From positions 1 to 31,088 of the IMG/VR virus record IMGVR_UViG_3300041809_000401: a stretch of 31,088 nucleotides of DNA. One strand, given 5' to 3'. A program made the position numbers and the translations under genes. This DNA is from a virus. This document shows positions 16,069 to 30,066 of the stretch, piece after piece; position 1 is the first letter of the stretch, and every line of letters begins with the position of its first letter. The notes beneath the pieces were generated by a model. That model did not search any database and was not told the origin of the DNA. It was given only the letters and a program-made list of their open reading frames with translations.

Positions 16069-16369
16069 ATTGGCCGTAGGATGCGTTATCACCTATCGTA
16101 ACAAGATAGTGACCACAGGATACAACGGAGCTACCCCAGGAGAGCCGCACTGCACAGAGGTCGGCTGCCACATCGTAGACGGTCACTGCAAACGAACGAT
16201 TCATGCTGAGAGGAACGCTCTCTCCCAGCTCAACTTACACGGCTACCCATTGAAGATGTATGTCACGCATGAGCCCTGTGACGACTGCAGAAGGAAAGCA
16301 AGAATGTACTTAATCGAAGAAATCATCTGGGACCAGCCATATGGAAAGGATAACCTCAGTGGAGATTAG
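15974..16369 (+). CDS. Deoxycytidylate (dCMP) deaminase
   Basis: Makes dUMP, the substrate of the ThyX next to it. Zinc site: HAER (His77, Glu79 as proton shuttle) and PCDDC (Cys102, Cys105). Cys60, Cys65, His71 and Cys72 form a second metal-binding patch like that of T4 dCMP deaminase. The N-terminal WDPYFLNIAKVVALRSTCPR is the family's opening helix. GGAGGAG lies 5 nt before the ATG. 131 aa is short compared with T4 (193 aa), so the allosteric C-terminal part is reduced. It overlaps thyX by 95 nt and the GNAT-C39 gene by up to 29 nt. Confidence 0.9.
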   Translation: METTNTPLQRLDWDPYFLNIAKVVALRSTCPRLAVGCVITYRNKIVTTGYNGATPGEPHCTEVGCHIVDGHCKRTIHAERNALSQLNLHGYPLKMYVTHEPCDDCRRKARMYLIEEIIWDQPYGKDNLSGD

Positions 16370-17249
16370 TTTTACGAACAACTACATTGCAACGGATATA
16401 TTTGAACTGCAATACGAGGAAGAACTGCGAGAGGATACAGAGACAAGAGAAGACATAATAAGAACTGGTCTAGTAGTTAATATGTTCCTAGACGACGTCT
16501 TGATCGGTGAATGTTTTGGCATCACTCCCATTGATTACATGTGGGTTATGGATAAAGGTCAGGGACTCTACAATGATGAGGATGCTATAGAAGATGTAGA
16601 TATGGCAGACGATGAATCGGTTTATGTATGGAGCACAACTGTCCTACCACAATATAGGGGTTTTGGATATGGGAAGAAACTCCGAGAAGAGTTTGCTAGA
16701 CACGCCTCTGAGGAATGTTACTCTAAGTTAGTGGGTCACGCTACGTCGCCAAAGATGATGCGTATAGTCAAAAATCTAGGAGGCATCTTTCATAAGAAAG
16801 GAGTTCATAAGAACTGGTTCGATACCGAACGTACTGCCCATTTTTACACACAGTTTCTTACCCAAACCAAAGACTACAACTGCGGGACTTTCGCTCTGGC
16901 CTACCTGTTGGAGCTTAAAGGCTATCCATCAGCCTCGCTTGAAGAACTTGAAAAGAATTTAAAGACAAATGATGAGTTCGGCACAAGTCCGTCTGCGATT
17001 CAAGCCTTCTTGAAAAAGAACAAGATAGCCCATAGAAGCATGAAGACACTAGAGCCTGACTCAATTATCGATATCACGGTCGATGGAGACGGCCATTGGA
17101 TGACCTTAATCAGTGAGTATAAGGGAAATCTGGGGTTGTGGCATGTGTATGATCCTGAAGAAGGTTATGTGACTCACACAACAGAATACCTTGAGGAGAA
17201 CTGGGTCTCTCCTAGATACGGCAAAAACAAAGGATTTACATTACTATGA
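16341..17249 (+). CDS. GNAT acetyltransferase fused to C39-like cysteine peptidase
   Basis: Residues 1-150 are a GNAT domain: TTVLPQYRGFGYGKKL has the acetyl-CoA loop Q/R-x2-G-x-G/A (Gln104, Arg106, Gly107, Gly109), followed by SPKMMRIVKNLGGIFHKKG (136-154), the C-terminal GNAT segment. Residues 165-302 are a papain-like C39 peptidase: DYNCGTFALAYLL with Cys181, GDGHWMTLI with His252, and HVYDPEEGY with Asp271, a complete Cys-His-Asp triad. There is no transporter. Similar GNAT/peptidase C39 fusions exist in bacteria, where they can neighbour ATP-grasp ligases. Start uncertain: ATG at 16341 lacks a ribosome site; GTG at 16359 has AAGGA 8 nt upstream. The stop overlaps the next gene (ATGA). 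Cytoplasmic; substrate unknown. Confidence 0.8.
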   Translation: MERITSVEISFTNNYIATDIFELQYEEELREDTETREDIIRTGLVVNMFLDDVLIGECFGITPIDYMWVMDKGQGLYNDEDAIEDVDMADDESVYVWSTTVLPQYRGFGYGKKLREEFARHASEECYSKLVGHATSPKMMRIVKNLGGIFHKKGVHKNWFDTERTAHFYTQFLTQTKDYNCGTFALAYLLELKGYPSASLEELEKNLKTNDEFGTSPSAIQAFLKKNKIAHRSMKTLEPDSIIDITVDGDGHWMTLISEYKGNLGLWHVYDPEEGYVTHTTEYLEENWVSPRYGKNKGFTLL

Positions 17250-20111: not shown

Positions 20112-22649
20112 CTAGTCCTCCGGTGTAAACGCGTGTTTATCTATGTAACGCTCTCTTTTTCTGGCTGTCTTTTCTGAAGGGTTATGATGTATGTGCTGGT
20201 TCAAAGAGCTTATAAGGGCAGAAATCACATGATCCGCAAATGTCATAGGCTGCCCTGCCATAGACTTTCCTTGAGCATTTTCCATAGCTCCTGCAACAAC
20301 CCCAAGCGGGGCGAAGTGATTTTGGGCGATTTTAAATAAACCCTGGTCCCAGGTCTCATGAGTGTCCTGGGGGGCGTTCCAATCATTTGTCACCTCATTA
20401 ATATCATGAACTGCTCCCATCGTGGCAGTGTTAATAACGTACTGCAATGGATTAGTTGTCATCTGCCCTAATTCTTCTCCTGGGTCTGAACCACTGTACT
20501 TGTCTTCCTTAGCTCCTGCTCTGTTGTCCTGTACTTGTCCTTCAGTACGAAGTAACGTCTCAACATTTATCGGATTGTGTATTATAGAGTCAAGGAGAGC
20601 CTTTGGCAGTACTCCAAACTTGTAGGCCACATACGGACCACCAAAAGAAGCGAAGGTGCGGGCGAAGGCCGTAAGGGCGTTATAGTCTCCAAGCTTCTTA
20701 TTGATGAGAGCCCCTTTGATGTAGTGAGCCTTGGTACCGGCTACAGTCGGACCCATAACCCGGTCGAGATGCTCAAGCATGCCCGTTCTCCAACCAAGCT
20801 CCATCTTGTGCAGAATACCGCTAGACCTGTTAACCAGATCAGCGTACCCTGGTACGCCTCCCATGTGGCCTCCGATGTACTCAGGGACGCCTGCACCCAT
20901 CTCTGTGAGAGTGCTCTCTGCAACGTGGTCTACAGGCTTCACCATAGCCGCTACGCCTCTTGTAACAGCGTCTAAGCCGCCTCCCAAGAACTGCAGGGTG
21001 CCTACGTTACCGACGGCATGCGGGAGGGGGTTCAGCTCAATGCCAGCTCTGCCGAGATCCGCCGCAGTCTTAGCTGCCTTGGCAACAGGGGTAACTTTAG
21101 GAGCACGATAAGACTCCCAATCTGGTATGCTGCCTGCGCCCTTCTTAATGAGGGCCTTGCCGCCTGCTTCGGAAAACACGTCTTTGGATTTACGCGCTAA
21201 CTCGTTTTTGTGTACATTGTCTCTCAAATATGAGAAAAACTCAGACCTCTCGTCAGGGTCCATCTGTCGTATATTGTCTAGCTTGTTAGGACGCGCTTTA
21301 CGAAACGCTGCGTCCAGGTCAGGCCGTAGTTTCTGCATCTTCTCTTGGACCTTAGCAGTTCTCTCAGCGAGTCCTGCTTTATCCCCACGGGCTAGACCTT
21401 CGTTAATGCCTTTTGGGAACATTTTGTCAGTGACTTTTTTCTCCCACTCTTTCACTTGGCTCTTGGGGACCGGCAAATTTTCGTTCTTAAAGTCTGCATC
21501 TTTCAAAGAGCCCGTCCCCTGGGGACCATGTTCTGCAGCGTACTCCTGGAAACGAGCTGCTGAAGCATCTGCACTATGAACCACAGACTCGTCTTTTTTA
21601 AAATCTTGCACCTTACGAACGCGGGAGGCGTTCTCAAGCTGTACTCTAACGTCACGCCCCGTAGGAGTCAGACCGGCGTCTAGGAGGTCAGGACGGACAA
21701 CGAACGCGTCGTGCAGATTTTTAGCTATGTCTGCGGCAGAGTTCTTTGTACCTCTGTAAGCCTCCGCCAAATGCTCAAAGAAAGGGCCTGCACCGTGTTT
21801 CTTCAAGAGCCTGTAAGCTTGCCCTGTAATCAGACGGCCTGCCGTCACCCCGGCATGGATGAGAGGCTTGGTTGCAGGATTGACAGCCGCATGGTGAGCT
21901 GCCGTAACGAGAAGTTGTGAAGCACTCGGAGCATCCGCTAACTTATCCGCAAGGCCCATATCTCTAATAGCTGTAGCCCCGTCAGAGGCCCAAGCGAACG
22001 GGTCGGCTAGAGTGTCTGCGCCTACTTTGTTTAATGTCTTTAGAGCGTTCCGCACAAGAGGCGTAAGCTGGCCTAGGTGAGACATGAGTGCACTGTGCAT
22101 TGTCATGTCGATATCAACGTCTGTTGGCAGGTGCAGGCCCCGCTGAAATGATTCACGAGCAGCGTTTACACTCTGCGATGAGGGGTGCCAAACTAGGTCA
22201 TTGAGGGTAGTCATACGGTCGTGAAAATCAGTCACCTTTGAAAGTGGAGTGTTCCCCGCTAGAGGACCCTTTCTAAAGGCTTGAGTTATGCCCTCGACTT
22301 CCCGGCCGGGAGTGCTAATTACATTTAAATCTTCAGATGCTTCTGTCCCCACGGCCCTAATAGCCTCGTCTTGTGCGCTTCTGATGTTACCCTCCCAACC
22401 CTTCAGAACTTGTGCAGTGTTCTTCTGCTTGGCCTGCATCTGTGACCAGATACTAGGGGTGGAGGACTTGTCAGGCACGAACCCTCCCCCAGCAGGAGGA
22501 GTAGCTTGCCGTAGAGTGGGACCCACTTGAGGAGTAGAGACAGGTACCGGAGTACCTGTGGCCTTATTGTCAGGATCTGGAACGAAGCCCCCACCTCTAG
22601 AAGCGGGAGCTGCTGGAGCCGGAGTGGGGTCCGGTGTGAACCCACTCAT
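20112..22649 (-). CDS. Large internal virion (DNA-ejection type) protein, 845 aa
   Basis: No enzyme motif found. The N-terminus is Pro/Gly-rich and carries three copies of a short motif: GFTPDP (3-8), GFVPDP (21-26) and GFVPD (56-60). The body is helical, Ala/Lys-rich and soluble, with the low hydrophobicity and high helix content of podovirus ejection proteins such as T7 gp16 or P22 gp16. A Gly-rich segment near 555-620 could be membrane-active. The gene lies with the 433-aa and 310-aa low-complexity proteins, matching the usual trio of ejection proteins. ATG at 22649 overlaps the preceding stop (ATGA). Assignment is by size, composition and place; a lytic transglycosylase motif is not seen. 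Confidence 0.55.
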   Translation of the reverse strand: MSGFTPDPTPAPAAPASRGGGFVPDPDNKATGTPVPVSTPQVGPTLRQATPPAGGGFVPDKSSTPSIWSQMQAKQKNTAQVLKGWEGNIRSAQDEAIRAVGTEASEDLNVISTPGREVEGITQAFRKGPLAGNTPLSKVTDFHDRMTTLNDLVWHPSSQSVNAARESFQRGLHLPTDVDIDMTMHSALMSHLGQLTPLVRNALKTLNKVGADTLADPFAWASDGATAIRDMGLADKLADAPSASQLLVTAAHHAAVNPATKPLIHAGVTAGRLITGQAYRLLKKHGAGPFFEHLAEAYRGTKNSAADIAKNLHDAFVVRPDLLDAGLTPTGRDVRVQLENASRVRKVQDFKKDESVVHSADASAARFQEYAAEHGPQGTGSLKDADFKNENLPVPKSQVKEWEKKVTDKMFPKGINEGLARGDKAGLAERTAKVQEKMQKLRPDLDAAFRKARPNKLDNIRQMDPDERSEFFSYLRDNVHKNELARKSKDVFSEAGGKALIKKGAGSIPDWESYRAPKVTPVAKAAKTAADLGRAGIELNPLPHAVGNVGTLQFLGGGLDAVTRGVAAMVKPVDHVAESTLTEMGAGVPEYIGGHMGGVPGYADLVNRSSGILHKMELGWRTGMLEHLDRVMGPTVAGTKAHYIKGALINKKLGDYNALTAFARTFASFGGPYVAYKFGVLPKALLDSIIHNPINVETLLRTEGQVQDNRAGAKEDKYSGSDPGEELGQMTTNPLQYVINTATMGAVHDINEVTNDWNAPQDTHETWDQGLFKIAQNHFAPLGVVAGAMENAQGKSMAGQPMTFADHVISALISSLNQHIHHNPSEKTARKRERYIDKHAFTPED

Positions 22650-23947
22650 TGCACTTTATACAGCTTGCCGTCTCTAACTACGGCAGGCGTCCCATCGGCC
22701 ATCTTTCCTCTGGTGCCATTCTTGGCTCCTGGCGGAGCGTCCCCAAGGGATTGTTCAGATCCCCCCTGATTAGCACGAGGCAGAATACTCGCCTGTTTGC
22801 CACTTTGTTTGCTTATGGCAACACCCTGGTGCTGAAAATTGGTAAACTCACTGCGGGCCTTATTAGACTGCTGCGTGGCAGAATAGACAAGACTCTCTAG
22901 TCTGCCGATACTCCCCTGAAGCTTGATCCCAATAGGGTCATCTGCTAGTATGGTCCCACCATTTTTAGTAGCGGCATACGTGGCTAGGGCTTTCTTAGCG
23001 CCTTCCAACTGTCCTTCAGTTCTTGATGTGTACTCGTCAAGCGCCTGAGTAGCGAGGTGGAGATTCTTAAAAGAGCCGGGGTTGGTATTGTACTGCAGCT
23101 CCTGAAGACGAACACTCAGCTCCTGGCTCCGTAGGCCGAGGCTCTGTTCGGCTATTTGAAGTCTAGGACCCACGGCAGCAGCTTCTGCAGATGCTCGTCC
23201 GGCCTCAGCATTCATTTTGTTAATGACAGCATACGCCTTGGCTGTGTCTGTTGCACTTGTGTGCTCCTGTACGATAGCTCGTGCCTTCTCTAGACGTGAC
23301 CAAATGGGCAACTTGACATCATCAACATATTCTTTATGTGCTTCCGCCTTCTGGCCTGTAGTAGCGCGTGTTCCTGCGGCCTGGGCAGTCAGTCTCTTTG
23401 TCATCTGGTCATACGGTTGTATAGCCTTAGTTGTGTCAAATCCCTTTGGTTTTCCTCCTACGTCCCTTGTAGCATATGCTCGTACAGAAGGGTCCATAGC
23501 CATAAGTTTCGCTACTTCATCCGGGGTATAATCGCCGAACTGTTTGCTTTTCGTCGAGTCAACATCTATATTTCCATCTTTATCCATTGCAACTGGCATA
23601 TGAAGAGAACTCGAAGCATCAAGATAAGCCTTGCGAAGGGCAGGATCTTTCAGCATGTCAGGATGAGTGAGAAGCTGTCTATTAGTGTTAGTAACAAGAG
23701 TCTGTGCATTCTGTTGAGTAGCGGCAAGATTCGTCGCATCTAGACCAGCTTGTGCGACTTTGTTCTCAATGCCCTCATGCGTGATATCTGCGCCAGTCTT
23801 GGCAACATTGGCAGCAGACTCAGCCGCTTTTTGTTTTCTATCCCCTTTGTCTATGTTGCCTTGGTGCAGTCCTCCGAAGAGGCCGCCTAAGAGGCTTATA
23901 AGGCCGCCTGCCCCACCACCACCCATATTAGGTACACCATAGCCCAT
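22646..23947 (-). CDS. Internal virion protein, helical, 433 aa
   Basis: The N-terminus is Gly-rich with a short hydrophobic segment (GGAGGLISLLGGLFGGL), then long Ala/Gln/Asn-rich helices (for example QKAAESAANVAKTGADI and EIHEG-type heptads), ending in a Gly-rich linker and a small strand module (GTPAVVRDGKLYKVQ) often seen at the C-termini of virion proteins. Such a composition matches gp15/gp20-like ejection proteins. AGGAGAT precedes the ATG. The ATP-grasp gene lies 2 nt upstream and the 845-aa protein overlaps downstream, so these three are translated as a unit. Confidence 0.55.
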   Translation of the reverse strand: MGYGVPNMGGGGAGGLISLLGGLFGGLHQGNIDKGDRKQKAAESAANVAKTGADITHEGIENKVAQAGLDATNLAATQQNAQTLVTNTNRQLLTHPDMLKDPALRKAYLDASSSLHMPVAMDKDGNIDVDSTKSKQFGDYTPDEVAKLMAMDPSVRAYATRDVGGKPKGFDTTKAIQPYDQMTKRLTAQAAGTRATTGQKAEAHKEYVDDVKLPIWSRLEKARAIVQEHTSATDTAKAYAVINKMNAEAGRASAEAAAVGPRLQIAEQSLGLRSQELSVRLQELQYNTNPGSFKNLHLATQALDEYTSRTEGQLEGAKKALATYAATKNGGTILADDPIGIKLQGSIGRLESLVYSATQQSNKARSEFTNFQHQGVAISKQSGKQASILPRANQGGSEQSLGDAPPGAKNGTRGKMADGTPAVVRDGKLYKVQ

Positions 23948-23949
23948 GA

Positions 23950-25278
23950 TTATCTCCTCATCGCAGGGGTTGTCTCGTAACCATATTTTAACATGGTCTC
24001 AACATCTTTCAAAATGATCGTGGCTGCATCTGTCCTGTACTGCAAGTCCTGAACAGATAATTTATCCAAGAACTTGTATATCTTTTCGAACCCTTTACTT
24101 ATCGAAGGGTCCTCGGATACGGCGCAACCCACGAACCCTGTAGGGTCAGACACAAACAGACCCTTGTCTTCCTCCCACGATACCCCCACGGCCACAAAGA
24201 ACTTGTCCCATATCCCATCGTAGTTCTTTACACGAATACCGAGGGCAGGACTCTTGTCTTCCTTCAGTTCGTTGGGGTATGGCGGTACGCTAAGGCGCAC
24301 AGCGTAATAAGCAGTATTAACCCTAAAAAATGCATTTACATCTTTCCCTAACACCAAAGCTTCTAGAAACCCTGAAAGAGATGTGATACCTCTTTGTGAA
24401 GTAAGTTCAGAATCTATCCCTAATCTAGGTGTCCACTCAAGGAACCATGCTCCCTCTTTGTTTAGGATAGTATTGATGTCATATAGACCAGGAGGAGCAG
24501 AGTGAGACCTAAACTCAGCTTCAAGTGCGTCAAAGTGAAGTTGTTCATGTATCTTCGATTCTTCAGTATAAAACCAAACGACATTTAAAGAGCATCCTGT
24601 AGAAGACCCTTTGCCGTCGTTCATAAATTTCTTATTCTCAATAGTTCCTTCATACGGCCCAACAAAAGATTTACCGTTAAACCACCTAGCTGTCGATACT
24701 GCGACGCCTTTAATCTTTTCTTGTAGGATGCATTTAATACTGTCGCCAAAGCGTTCTTTAACATGTTCAAGATGCTCCATGACTTCTTCAGTGTCTTTAC
24801 TAACTAGCGTGACATCTGAGCCTAAGAATCGGTCTGACTTCCAGGCCCAACCGCCATCTCCAGATTCTTGCTCCGGGTCGGTCTCTAGAAACTTCTGGAC
24901 AGCAGATATGGAGGTGAACTTTTTCGTAGGTGGACACAGGATACCAACTTTCTCTGCCAGGGCTGCTCCCCAGTCGCGGTCCTTCTCAAGTTTATCCATG
25001 AAAGGTCCGGACCCTATCACGAGTTTGCCCGAGTCCTGAAGCTCCTTAGCGAAGTCACCATCTCCTGAGCAGTCAAAAAAATAGATTGTACTCGGGTCCT
25101 GTTCTCCCCAAGCCAACCACTCTTCTTTACTCTCAGTCAACGGCACGAGGCCGGTGCCGACCTTACGATTGTCTTTGAGCTGGTGATAAACGAGAACTGA
25201 GTCTTCCCCAAGCTCATCGTAAAGTCTCCTAGCCCAAGCTATTGAGGACCCCTCGAAGATGTAAAATGCGAACCTCAC
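23950..25278 (-). CDS. ATP-grasp ligase, PurD-like (carboxylate-amine ligase)
   Basis: The 442-aa protein follows the glycinamide ribonucleotide synthetase layout: pre-ATP-grasp domain (1-85), GSGPFMDKLEKDRDW (89-103, like the PurD segment ahead of the ATP-grasp domain), ATP-binding WAWKSDR with Lys147, ILQEKIKGVAVSTARWFNGK (184-203, like EExLxGxExS), DGKGSSTG (221-228, like the D.G.NTGG loop), Asp267 and FLEWTPRLG (279-287) for metal binding, where PurD has ExNxRFG. Residues AATIILKDVETML close the domain. So it likely activates a carboxylate as acyl phosphate and joins it to an amine. Lying inside the ejection-protein cluster, in an ATGA overlap with the 310-aa protein, it is unlikely to serve purine synthesis; peptide or virion modification is my inference. 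No substrate visible. Confidence 0.8.
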   Translation of the reverse strand: MRFAFYIFEGSSIAWARRLYDELGEDSVLVYHQLKDNRKVGTGLVPLTESKEEWLAWGEQDPSTIYFFDCSGDGDFAKELQDSGKLVIGSGPFMDKLEKDRDWGAALAEKVGILCPPTKKFTSISAVQKFLETDPEQESGDGGWAWKSDRFLGSDVTLVSKDTEEVMEHLEHVKERFGDSIKCILQEKIKGVAVSTARWFNGKSFVGPYEGTIENKKFMNDGKGSSTGCSLNVVWFYTEESKIHEQLHFDALEAEFRSHSAPPGLYDINTILNKEGAWFLEWTPRLGIDSELTSQRGITSLSGFLEALVLGKDVNAFFRVNTAYYAVRLSVPPYPNELKEDKSPALGIRVKNYDGIWDKFFVAVGVSWEEDKGLFVSDPTGFVGCAVSEDPSISKGFEKIYKFLDKLSVQDLQYRTDAATIILKDVETMLKYGYETTPAMRR

Positions 25279-26207
25279 ATCGCTGCCATAGCGCCCGCTT
25301 TAATGGCGGTTGATCCTAGACCTCCTAGAGTACTACCAAGACTTCCTAAGAGGGAATTGTTACTTGACTGTTGCGACTGAGCTTGGTTACCGAACCCCAC
25401 AGCCTGGTTGCCGTAGCCAGAGAATAGCCCAGACTGCAGGTTGCCTGCCTGCTCCGTAGCTCCTAGTCCTTGAGCAGAGGAGGCGAGACCTTGGGTCAGG
25501 GCAGTGTTACCTAGACCTAGGGCAGACATCAAATTCTGCAGAGTCTGCGTGTTGAGTCCTTCTCCGCCTGTGAGCGCCTGTTGGAGCATACTCATCGTCT
25601 GAGCGTCTAGGCCGGACGCAGTAGATGCGAGGCCCGTAGCGCCCTGCTGCTTGATTGTCTGATTCTGACCGGCCAAGGACCCCGCGAGGTTGCCAGAGGC
25701 CGTTAGGAGGGCGTTCTGATTGGCCTGCTGCGTTGCGGCAGGGTTCATGCCTGGCTGCATCTGATTAGCCATCGTAGCGTTGCTCTGAGCCATCTGCTGC
25801 TGCAGCTGGTTCTGAGCGTTCATCATCTGCCCTTGTCCCATGCCCTGCGACATCTCATTACTATAGAAACTTGAGAGGGCAGGGTTAGCTTGCGAGAGGT
25901 TCGTAGCTCCGGTGTTGGAGGCGTAGTTGGTGAACTGTTGCCCAAGCTGATTCTGATTGATCCCCGTCTGCCCGGACATGTTGCCCTGTGAGTTAAGAGC
26001 TGTTCCTAGACCTGCCTGCATGCCAGGAGCCACTGCTGCAGCGTTCCCAGCGATAGCAGAGGTCGTGGCAGGCATAGGAGCGTTGAGCCCTGCTGCCTGA
26101 GTGTTGAGCGTGTTGACATTGTTGTTTATGCCAGTGGCAGCCGTGCCCTGATTGTTAAGGGCTGACTGCATAGCTCCTTGAGCCGCTCCACCACTTCCAC
26201 TACTCAT
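25275..26207 (-). CDS. Gly/Gln/Asn/Ala-rich virion protein (310 aa), ejection type
   Basis: Almost entirely low complexity: long runs of Gly, Ala, Gln, Asn, Ser and Met with hydrophobic spacing, no charged stretches and nearly no aromatic residues. The C-terminus (LLGSLGSTLGGLGSTAIKAG) may form a membrane-active helix. Small Ala/Gly/Gln-rich proteins such as T7 gp14 and P22 gp7 are ejected first and form the outer-membrane channel; this protein has the right size and neighbours. GGAG 7 nt before the ATG. Confidence 0.55.
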   Translation of the reverse strand: MSSGSGGAAQGAMQSALNNQGTAATGINNNVNTLNTQAAGLNAPMPATTSAIAGNAAAVAPGMQAGLGTALNSQGNMSGQTGINQNQLGQQFTNYASNTGATNLSQANPALSSFYSNEMSQGMGQGQMMNAQNQLQQQMAQSNATMANQMQPGMNPAATQQANQNALLTASGNLAGSLAGQNQTIKQQGATGLASTASGLDAQTMSMLQQALTGGEGLNTQTLQNLMSALGLGNTALTQGLASSAQGLGATEQAGNLQSGLFSGYGNQAVGFGNQAQSQQSSNNSLLGSLGSTLGGLGSTAIKAGAMAAM

Positions 26208-26208
26208 T

Positions 26209-26628
26209 TTAGACTCCTACATACTCAGTCAACAGTACTTCAGTACCTATGGAGGTCGTTTCAGGCTCAGTGGAGATTTTAAAATGTCTCTTCTCAAGTG
26301 CTCTATGCCAAGCCTTGTTACCAATTTCAACATGCCCGAATTTATGGGTATGCTCGAATCCTAAAAAATACTCTATGAGGACCTTTATAGATTTAGGGTT
26401 ACCATAAAGTCCAACAGCACAGAGTTCTTCTGGAAGTTTACTTGACATCATCAAGCCTAGAACACCTTTTATATTGCCATGGTGTTCTCGTGTTCCGTAC
26501 CAAGTTATGTAGTTCTTCCAAGTCTCTGACCACTCGTAGGGGAATGGTAGACCTGCATTTGTCGTATATTCAAGAGCAAAAGGCAACGCCTCTTCATGCT
26601 TGATACGAGTTATGTAGTACTGTTCCAT
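26209..26628 (-). CDS. Divergent GNAT-like protein (139 aa), possible
   Basis: Size (139 aa) and pattern recall a GNAT acetyltransferase: an N-terminal strand and helix (YYITRIKHEEALPFALEY), strands GNIKGVLGLMM and ELCAVGLYGNP, a helix (SIKVLIEYFLGF), then HVEIGNKAWHRALEKRHFKI, which looks like the GNAT C-terminal N-x4-A-x2-R.GF segment. The acetyl-CoA loop R-x2-G-x-G is not recognisable, so it may have lost catalysis. GNAT-like small proteins occur in internal virion gene clusters of T7-type phages (gp13 neighbourhood). TAATG overlap with the Gln-rich gene upstream. Confidence 0.4.
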   Translation of the reverse strand: MEQYYITRIKHEEALPFALEYTTNAGLPFPYEWSETWKNYITWYGTREHHGNIKGVLGLMMSSKLPEELCAVGLYGNPKSIKVLIEYFLGFEHTHKFGHVEIGNKAWHRALEKRHFKISTEPETTSIGTEVLLTEYVGV

Positions 26629-26999
26629 TATTTCACCTTTAGTCCCATCTGTCCCATCATCTTCACCAGCTCAGGAGGCTGTTGAGCCTGTTGTTGGGCT
26701 TGCTGCTGCTGCTGGGGTGCTTGCTGCTGCTGTGGATTCATCGTTAGCAGATGCAGAAGCATTGGTAACAATTGTTGCATCGACATCTGCGCCGGACCCT
26801 CCGCTCCAGCCGGTGCAGGCTGTCCCGGCTGCAAGTTCGGCCCCATCCGTTGCAGGAACGATAATAGAGCCATCAGAGCTTCCGGCGGCACATTCGCAGG
26901 CGGCTGCTGCTGCCCAGGCTGCTGCGGCTGCTGCCCTTGTTGCGGCTGTCCCTGCCCAGCTTGTTGCCCCATCTGTGGGCCAGGCATCATACCACCCAT
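26628..26999 (-). CDS. Gln/Pro/Met-rich virion-associated protein (123 aa)
   Basis: Extreme composition: two Gln/Pro blocks (for example PQQGQQPQQPGQQQPPANVP and a Q-rich block near 90-108) flank two short amphipathic helices (LMALLSFLQRMG, LLPMLLHLLTM). The plus strand here is open in other frames only because of this repeat composition. GATGG/GAAAATAG precede the start weakly. It sits in the virion operon, so a structural or assembly role is likely; function unknown. Confidence 0.55.
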   Translation of the reverse strand: MGGMMPGPQMGQQAGQGQPQQGQQPQQPGQQQPPANVPPEALMALLSFLQRMGPNLQPGQPAPAGAEGPAQMSMQQLLPMLLHLLTMNPQQQQAPQQQQQAQQQAQQPPELVKMMGQMGLKVK

Positions 27000-27742: not shown

Positions 27743-28231
27743 TCAAGTAGATTGGTAGAACAGTTGAGCGTAAACGATACCTGTGGCTATCGCGGGGTCC
27801 ACCTGTGCTTGAAACAGACGATACGAACCGCCTCCTAGGATCCCCTGCCCTATGATGATGTGCGGCGAAGCCGGTGCTCCTGTCGGTTGGATGTACATAA
27901 GAACGACCGGCGTAGCAGCCACTCCGCTCAGTATGAACTGCAGGGTAGACCCTGGGGGAATGGTAAGGGTGAGTCCTTGGGCCTTCACGTTCGTCACGGT
28001 GTTGGCGGAGTTTACACGATTGACTATGTTAGAGAATGTCAACAGATTCTTAGGGTTGAGTAAGAGGTTGATCTGTGCAAAGTCCGACCCTATGAGAGTT
28101 GGGGGGTTGATGCGAGGACCGTTGGATTTTGCAAGGTTCGTAACGCCCTTGAGGACATCGTAACCCTTGCCCGTGCTGTAGTTGCTCACCGAACGAGTAG
28201 TGCCTTGGTTGTTTGCTGGCGGAACAGGCAT
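27743..28231 (-). CDS. Virion-associated beta-rich protein (162 aa)
   Basis: The first 60 residues are polar and flexible. The rest is strand-rich, Gly/Ala/Thr-containing (GLTLTIPPGSTLQFILSG, TPVVLMYIQPTG, GIVYAQLFYQ), like small capsid-decoration or tail-attachment domains, where a jelly-roll or Ig-like fold is common. The start overlaps the stop of the 611-aa gene (TGATG). No named family is recognised. Confidence 0.55.
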   Translation of the reverse strand: MPVPPANNQGTTRSVSNYSTGKGYDVLKGVTNLAKSNGPRINPPTLIGSDFAQINLLLNPKNLLTFSNIVNRVNSANTVTNVKAQGLTLTIPPGSTLQFILSGVAATPVVLMYIQPTGAPASPHIIIGQGILGGGSYRLFQAQVDPAIATGIVYAQLFYQST

Positions 28232-30066
28232 CAGATAGTCGCCTGTGTTTGTATGAGTCTACGATCAACGAACCCATAAATGGTGATCTGCTGAATCTCA
28301 AGCTGTATCGAAGCGAACGTCTGCAGGAGGAACTGGACTTCGGATCCTCGCATAGACTGTGACCAGCTCTCTTGGTGACGTACTCCGTTCGTAGCGTCGT
28401 TCAAGTTTAAGGTGATCTGGTTGTAGTATGCGTCGTTGCCAGGGTTGGCGATACAGGTCAGGTAGGCGAGGGCAACCTGTTGAGGGCAGACAATCTCCCC
28501 GTAACGGAAGATTTTGTCTGTGGAAGAGTCTCCAGCATCCGTTATTCTTGAACGCACAAGGGACATGATGGGTTCGCCTAAGTCCGTGCCTCCAGTGAAC
28601 CACTGGTCGAACTCTCCGATGTGTTGGAGATTTAGGGCCAACACCTGCAGATGCACTCCATTCGCAGGGTTCTGAGAGGCTTCAACATCCACGTAAACAT
28701 GATTTGTAGCCCAACCAAGTTTCCACCAAGCCTGCGACCTCTGGTCATAGAAATAGGTCAAGTTTAGGGTAGGGAAGCTAATATGATACATACGGTCGTA
28801 CCAGAAGCCCACCATTTGAGACAAGTCATTGTCAGAGAGACCGGCCCAGAAGGACTTGATGTTTGATTGTTGGTACTGTCCATCCGACATGTTCAGAGGA
28901 GTCTGTCCATTGGAGAACCATACTCCTCGAGTGTTGCCCCATCCTGTCAGACCGTCCAAGGTAGCCACAGACAGGCCAGAACGACAGCCAGTGTCTGCGA
29001 CCTTAGTAGCGATGAAGTCTGCGTTGGTTGAACCCCAGACCGCGTACACACTGCGATATTTGTTGAGTATGAGTTGTGAGCCCTCACTGCTCATGCCCAT
29101 CGCTACATCATTGAACGAGTTCTCTCCAACAGGCAGAAACCCCGTAACGAGGTTGAAGCCCCAAGGTTCATTCAAATTGGAGTAGTAGACTAGTGACGGG
29201 TCTGTAGGTGTGCCCCATCCCCAAATACGCTCCTGGTGAGTGCAGATAAACGAAAACGGAAACGGCACATCGCGATTCACTGTGAGTAGTTGACCAACAA
29301 CCGCAGAATCGGCCAGATTGTCTAAATACACTGTAGTAGTGTTGTCGGGGATGGTAGCGATTAGAAAGAACTGATTGAGTACTCCGATACTCAAACGATA
29401 GATGTTACGCTCATTCACCTGGGGATCTGGTGAGATTGGGATATTGGTTAATTCAATGGCCTCAAAAGCTACCGTAAGAGGTAGAGATACAGTTCCTTGG
29501 GAGCTTTCTTGTGGGGCAAGGGAATTTCCAAATGTTATGCAGTAGTAGTATGTGCCGTCCAGGAGGCCGCCGCCAGCAGGAGCCAGCAGGGGAGCAGTAG
29601 GAGGAGCTGCAATGCCCCAGAAGGTCACTACTAGGTCAAGGTCAATCTTTAGGGGCGTATCGACGCTATTATTAACAAAACACCATTTTAATGAAAACAC
29701 AAACTGTGTGTTAAGTCCCGGTGTGAGAACTTCTGGGAGAACCAGTGCAGTATATGGGCCATCTAGAGGGCCTTCATAAAGGGTACCGACCCCACCAACA
29801 TCCACAGCGAAGATGTACGTATCAGGGAAACCAGGGCGTATGAACTTGGTGAACCCGTTGCACGGACCAGGCAGCAGTCCAATGAACGATCTGCCCAGGG
29901 CAGTGACGTATGACCCGTAGGTGTTGTTAGGCGTGATATTGAGGCAGTCAACGATGTTCGTAGGTGCGAGACGGAAAGGGGCGGTGGTTGTGTCGAGACC
30001 GCCTACAGGACCTAACTGGAGGATGGGTACGACCTCATCCCCCTTTACTTCTACTAGGGTGGCCAT
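28231..30066 (-). CDS. Large virion protein, probable beta-propeller-like tail component (611 aa)
   Basis: The opening (LGPVGGLDTTTAPFRLAPTNIVDCLNI, shown in motif form: GGLDT, then N.L..) and the repeated blade-like units (WGWGTPTDPSLVYYSN, SVYAVWGSTN, GVWFSNGQTPLNMSDG, YDRMYHISFP) resemble tail-hub or DNA-stabilisation proteins with a propeller fold, such as P22 gp10-type. Trp-Gly and Tyr/Asp turns recur at intervals of 40-60 residues. ATG at 30066 overlaps the TAA of the fibre-like gene. Likely at the portal or tail hub. Assignment by pattern only. Confidence 0.5.
   Translation of the reverse strand: MATLVEVKGDEVVPILQLGPVGGLDTTTAPFRLAPTNIVDCLNITPNNTYGSYVTALGRSFIGLLPGPCNGFTKFIRPGFPDTYIFAVDVGGVGTLYEGPLDGPYTALVLPEVLTPGLNTQFVFSLKWCFVNNSVDTPLKIDLDLVVTFWGIAAPPTAPLLAPAGGGLLDGTYYYCITFGNSLAPQESSQGTVSLPLTVAFEAIELTNIPISPDPQVNERNIYRLSIGVLNQFFLIATIPDNTTTVYLDNLADSAVVGQLLTVNRDVPFPFSFICTHQERIWGWGTPTDPSLVYYSNLNEPWGFNLVTGFLPVGENSFNDVAMGMSSEGSQLILNKYRSVYAVWGSTNADFIATKVADTGCRSGLSVATLDGLTGWGNTRGVWFSNGQTPLNMSDGQYQQSNIKSFWAGLSDNDLSQMVGFWYDRMYHISFPTLNLTYFYDQRSQAWWKLGWATNHVYVDVEASQNPANGVHLQVLALNLQHIGEFDQWFTGGTDLGEPIMSLVRSRITDAGDSSTDKIFRYGEIVCPQQVALAYLTCIANPGNDAYYNQITLNLNDATNGVRHQESWSQSMRGSEVQFLLQTFASIQLEIQQITIYGFVDRRLIQTQATI

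Follow-up and report, generated by a model that had tools for sequence, protein, structure and literature searches.

What does a PurD-like ligase do among the virion genes of a phage? The window, i.e. the whole stretch of 31,088 nucleotides analysed here (IMG/VR virus record IMGVR_UViG_3300041809_000401), encodes a protein that the original prediction described as a PurD-like ATP-grasp ligase lying inside a cluster of ejection-protein genes, and as something other than an enzyme of plain purine metabolism. Using a combination of methods (profile searches, structure modelling, alignment, phylogeny and comparison of gene neighbourhoods), we propose that this ligase shares its ancestry with PurD but would no longer form glycinamide ribonucleotide.

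The ligase gene and its neighbours

The ligase gene belongs to the following block.

20112 to 22649, minus strand: 845-aa probable large internal or ejection protein with short N-terminal repeats, no database match
22646 to 23947, minus strand: 433-aa probable internal or ejection protein, no database match
23950 to 25278, minus strand: PurD-like ATP-grasp ligase gene, GTG start, TAA stop, 442 aa
25275 to 25278, minus strand: GTGA, 4-nt stop/start overlap of the ligase gene and the upstream gene, probable translational coupling
25275 to 26207, minus strand: 310-aa Q/N/G/A-rich protein, probable internal or ejection protein, no database match
26209 to 26628, minus strand: GNAT-fold protein of 139 aa, found repeatedly as a partner in the block (model and PDB profile match)
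26628 to 26999, minus strand: 123-aa Q/P-rich small block protein
28231 to 30066, minus strand: 611-aa tail or internal virion protein (phrog_511, E 3e-17)

The gene overlap and the 2-nt gap announced for this locus were both found, the GTGA being shared with gene 25275-26207 and the TAA lying 2 nt ahead of the ATG of gene 22646-23947. The TIGR00877 purD profile matched residues 78-420 of the ligase (E 5.6e-8) with a score of 32 bits, which does not reach the equivalog cut-off of 288. Pfam GARS_C matched weakly (12.7 bits, below the gathering score), several relatives of the ligase exceed the Pfam threshold for GARS_A, and PHROGs gave no match at 0.1. A profile built from 42 phage relatives retrieved the solved PurD structures from the PDB at E 3e-47. 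The AF2 model computed from the alignment of these 42 relatives (mean pLDDT 93.1) comprises the pre-ATP-grasp, ATP-grasp and C domains in the PurD order; its 15 best PDB matches were all PurD (TM 0.67-0.75), followed by biotin carboxylases, and a fold search against predicted viral proteins returned no whole-length match (query TM <=0.42). Both the profile and the model searches proposed in the original prediction matched the PurD family, in agreement with its reading of the protein, and a chance likeness to PurD is excluded.

In the window lineage, the ligase gene is flanked by the genes of the 310-aa protein, rich in Q/N/G/A, and of the 433-aa protein; in a second phage lineage it comes after that of the largest protein. 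The ligase gene has the orientation of the late block in phages: in all 64 loci where an upstream gene of at least 150 aa could be read, this upstream gene was on the same strand as the ligase gene, which it overlapped (typically by 4 or 1 bases) or approached within 60 nt in 40 of the 64. The other block members assigned with PHROGs are the head-closure protein Hc3 and a weak relative of phrog_598 ("DNA ejection"), and the L021 block encodes a protein of 1,416 aa that includes a transglycosylase domain. Since the proteins encoded by 20112-22649, 22646-23947 and 25275-26207 had no direct database match, including against solved ejection proteins, they are labelled ejection proteins from their position, their composition and the homologous slots of other phages. 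The location predicted for the gene stands as regards its fixed place in a virion or ejection block, and the ejection identity of its neighbours is to be read as probable.

The ligase is a core gene of both phage lineages as sampled, because it was present in 13/13 contigs with enough sequence downstream of the tail protein and in 41/41 testable contigs after the second-lineage internal protein (contigs were fetched by means of other block genes, and those devoid of the ligase end too soon). Pattern scans of IMG/VR, which are not exhaustive and whose first two sets may overlap, confirmed 169 stretches when the window-type profile was used and yielded at least 586 for that of the second lineage, next to 21 with a true PurD in a comparable scan. 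A PurD-like ligase was found in just one of 50,697 phage records, and this record comes from an uncultured phage. A search for prophage hosts in the order of G004 yielded mostly ordinary PurD and a weak match in G111, and no host of the second lineage. At least two deep phage lineages, represented by hundreds of contigs, possess a core and order-locked ligase of the virion block that has no PHROG.

The recurrent partner encoded by 26209-26628 has a GNAT fold (model pLDDT 90.6; PDB GNATs at E 1e-6). In MW202796, a second-lineage gene occupying a comparable position carries an N-acetyltransferase annotation; the grouping of the GNATs of both lineages into one family was rejected, their profile match being weak (27.6% probability). 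Another phage subgroup has a cupin gene in the corresponding part of the block. Elsewhere in the window, gene 16341-17249 (plus strand) encodes a GNAT fused to a C39-type peptidase, in which NCG, GHW and YDP residues look like a catalytic set. This fusion also occurs in L001, L002 and L003, and is absent from the other loci searched; the peptidase and the ligase of one phage may be linked.

The N-terminal tandem repeats of the 20112-22649 protein differ among phages (GFVPDPD, LPEIPV, DLPTS, WEDAPVV and PWEKYKQ types), repeat-bearing homologues being encoded in L011-L023, L050, L062 and L085. The second-lineage internal proteins (e.g. L217:8001-9494 and L062:6156-7718) have swappable-looking C-termini, e.g. 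GYRFKGGDP...W and LPSGAEFIAPDGSHRKKP, and a 27-residue stretch of the GYRFKGGDP...W type also matches Pseudomonas phage H66. No conserved acceptor tail was found on the neighbouring proteins, whose C-termini look like exchangeable modules. A scan of the window for tRNAs and Rfam families returned none.

Catalytic motifs and relatives in cells

The reference system for the ligase is PurD, or GAR synthetase (TIGR00877; PF01071 GARS_A plus PF02843 GARS_C; PDB 2yw2, 1gso and 3lp8), and we aligned 10 true PurD with 23 PurD-like proteins from cells and 31 from phages or phage-like sequences. Similarly to PurD, the ligase has the whole fold, the domain order, the ATP-grasp lysine, the metal Glu, the ExxxR...G loop and the C-terminal RxD. 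The residues common to the three aligned groups are E98, K147, K216, G224, T227, G228, G264, E281, R285, G287, R415 and D417 (window numbering); among them are the ATP-grasp lysine and residues of the metal loop, and the ATP- and metal-site residues are invariant even where identity to the window protein falls to about 20%. Three of the motifs and residues can be placed on the DNA.

24838 to 24840, minus strand: K147, invariant ATP-grasp lysine, equivalent to K145 of PurD (alignment)
24472 to 24480, minus strand: DxN motif D267-I-N269, nearly invariant in the family (alignment)
24418 to 24438, minus strand: metal loop EWTPRLG (E281 to G287), of which E, T, R and G are invariant in the aligned sequences

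Unlike PurD, the ligase has lost the PurD-fixed motifs GxGGREHA, PGNxG, GPExPL, the ADGLxxGKG loop and GDPExQ; DHK is turned into ExK, and GPNTGGMG is lost, TG alone being kept throughout. The PurD residues Y271 and G273 are replaced by D267 and N269, a new DxN, and N288 is replaced by T283 in every aligned PurD-like sequence. The ligase bears the resulting family signature, i.e. E214, K216, T227, G228, D267, N269, E281, T283 and R285 (ExT, ExK, TG and DxN). The altered metal motif that had been noticed at this locus is thus genuine (EWTPRLG) and is accompanied by a changed substrate site, but it is not a feature of this gene alone, a view which was rejected because the N-to-T change and DxN occur across the family. 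In other ATP-grasp enzymes, a further metal ligand is often present 12 to 14 residues ahead of the metal Glu, and from this spacing DxN may compensate for the lost metal-motif Asn. Since the score of the ligase (32 bits) stays far below the cut-off (288), and nearly all PurD-only motifs have been lost, the ligase is, by these marks, not PurD and no longer a purine enzyme; the loss of the PurD hallmark residues suggests that it probably joins molecules other than the PurD substrates.

Relatives of the ligase are not restricted to phages. A scan of GTDB genomes identified 264 confirmed stretches encoding such relatives, in Patescibacteria, Omnitrophota, Woesearchaeota, Nitrososphaerota, Balneolota, Gammaproteobacteria and other taxa. 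LE[FW]TxR[FL]G is present in all 68 of the relatives that were closely read, of which two (L098 and L102) look like DNA from phages. In 8 of the 14 genomes tested, a true PurD (443-583 bits) co-occurs with the PurD-like gene (about 91-112 bits), which is therefore a paralogue there and not the local PurD. In the maximum-likelihood tree, PurD stands apart on a long branch with 100/100 support, and each of the two phage clades is strongly supported, the support for a single clade of all phage sequences being equivocal (51/88). As judged from profile, motifs and tree, this is a separate PurD-like family with an E[FW]TxR signature, which comprises a large branch in phages and another on the chromosomes of bacteria and archaea.

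The chromosomal paralogue, e.g. Halarchaeum WP_123078225.1 (annotated by the GARS C domain alone), belongs to this family by the same three marks, but differs from the phage ligase in that it lies outside a phage block and has mixed neighbours, namely an arginase-family gene, DUF1611 genes and GNAT-fold genes. Adjacent genes that cluster with GNAT-fold proteins (Acetyltransf_6 or LPG_synthase_C) occur in L094, L105, L131, L139, L151 and L160. This location of the chromosomal relatives indicates that the family is not inherently one of virion enzymes, and no known function was found for the cellular LE[FW]TxRFG paralogue (L092-L169).

Possible roles of the ligase

Enzymes with PurD-type ATP-grasp chemistry activate a carboxylate as an acyl-phosphate, which is then attacked by an amine to form an amide. 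We infer from the aligned residues that the phage protein is an ATP-grasp carboxylate-amine ligase with an intact-looking site, the invariance of which supports this acyl-phosphate/amide chemistry, while its late, coupled and order-locked position argues for a function connected with the particle or with its delivery. The ligase would be made from a late mRNA, coupled to a probable ejection protein and in a strict gene order. Using ATP, it would turn a carboxylate into an acyl-phosphate, on which the attack of an amine would generate an amide, thereby joining an amino acid, or another small acid or amine, to a part of the apparatus for DNA ejection. Alternatively, the ligase would be built in or ejected with this apparatus, and would modify a host target early. 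The GNAT acyltransferase would be a frequent partner in the proposed modification.

That the ligase modifies a virion or ejection component, or a host target once ejected, is the reading we prefer, with a confidence that stays somewhat below even. The narrower version, in which a widespread phage-specific protein-modifying ligase would link, through an amide, an amino acid or a small acid or amine to an ejection protein or, after ejection, to a host protein, in a two-step modification with the GNAT that virion-module enzymes would perform in numerous uncultured phages, is put forward more tentatively; we infer both the substrate and the packaging of the ligase.

A comparison of the near-identical phages L003 and L004 bears on the target. 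The ligase is 99.5% identical between them (dN 0.002; dS 0.059) and is under strong purifying selection. The tail protein is 99.8% identical and the GNAT 38%, and the homologues of the 310-aa, 433-aa and 845-aa proteins are 84.5%, 84.5% and 75% identical, respectively, so that the GNAT and the ejection-type proteins differ at 15-62% of their residues. This sharp contrast spans the region from the GNAT to the large virion protein (L003:6723-12933), with the constant ligase amid it. A co-evolution of the ligase with the ejection proteins was looked for in this pair and not seen, the neighbours varying and the ligase being constant. From this constancy alongside changing neighbours, the target is probably not in the variable parts of the ejection-type proteins; a constant ligase would fit an action on a virion segment that is itself conserved, on a host target or on a small molecule.

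The last of these possibilities, which we regard as plausible though doubtful, is that the product of the ligase in the infected cell is a small compound, newly made or altered (an amino-acid amide, a dipeptide or an envelope precursor), the late operon setting the timing only. It is in line with the constancy of the ligase while the ejection-type proteins vary, with the arginase-family, DUF1611 and GNAT-fold genes adjoining the chromosomal relatives, and with the notion that members of the family in cells may have a similar task; however, a fixed slot of the virion block in divergent phages, together with core status, would be unusual for an accessory metabolic gene. The place among virion-type genes would suit a component of the ejection block with a structural or chaperone-like role, the fold being kept and the activity lost, but the invariance of the ATP- and metal-site residues down to about 20% identity to the window protein makes this unlikely.

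As to an ordinary PurD raising the purine supply, we consider it most improbable, in spite of the same fold and domain order and of the other nucleotide enzymes of the phage (RNR large and small chains, ThyX and dCMP deaminase). Plain PurD was rejected on the basis of the missed cut-off, the lost motifs, the separate tree clade and the coexistence of the cellular relatives with a real PurD. Furthermore, no other purine-synthesis enzyme was found with Pfam, NCBIfam or PHROGs among the scanned window ORFs (mostly of at least about 130 aa), as the original prediction had stated, and its view that plain purine metabolism is not at stake is likewise borne out. If our preferred reading is true and the ligase acts on ejection proteins or host targets, genome delivery would include a covalent modification step open to testing.

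Phage enzymes and purD annotations

A literature search, the scope of which lies outside the 2009 amidoligase survey (PMC3268129) where an earlier mention is possible, returned no description of this PurD-like family. LUZ24-like phages encode ATP-grasp, amidoligase and glutamine amidotransferase genes, which, likened by description and not by sequence, share with the ligase a phage-encoded amide-ligase chemistry. Unlike the late-block ligase, these genes belong in UFV-P2 to an early module, and the ATP-grasp protein has 291 aa. A possible working model for the ligase is offered by phage enzymes that modify host proteins, namely the GNAT protein Rac of LUZ19 and T4 Alt, which is named in the same report (PMC7552054); they differ from the ligase in fold and chemistry.

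Virome studies of snow, vents and oceans (PMC11097641, PMC12043954, PMC11360552) count purD/GART among viral auxiliary metabolic genes, with a more than 2.8-fold enrichment of GART in viruses for the ocean data. Given the at least 586 PurD-like stretches against 21 with true PurD in the IMG/VR scans mentioned above, part of the published viral purD/GART calls may correspond to this non-PurD family, and PurD-like ligases of phages may often be mislabelled as purine metabolism.

The further matches in "phage" records were rejected as relatives of the ligase, as they look like bacterial purD. The annotated records AGRM01000005 and CAKLQH020000004 (purH-purD order), which served as PurD controls, and unannotated ones such as OR848139 and MT837619, carry what appears to be ordinary bacterial purD. 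Since such phage-filed records hold bacterial-type purD, the phage collection seems to contain bacterial DNA.
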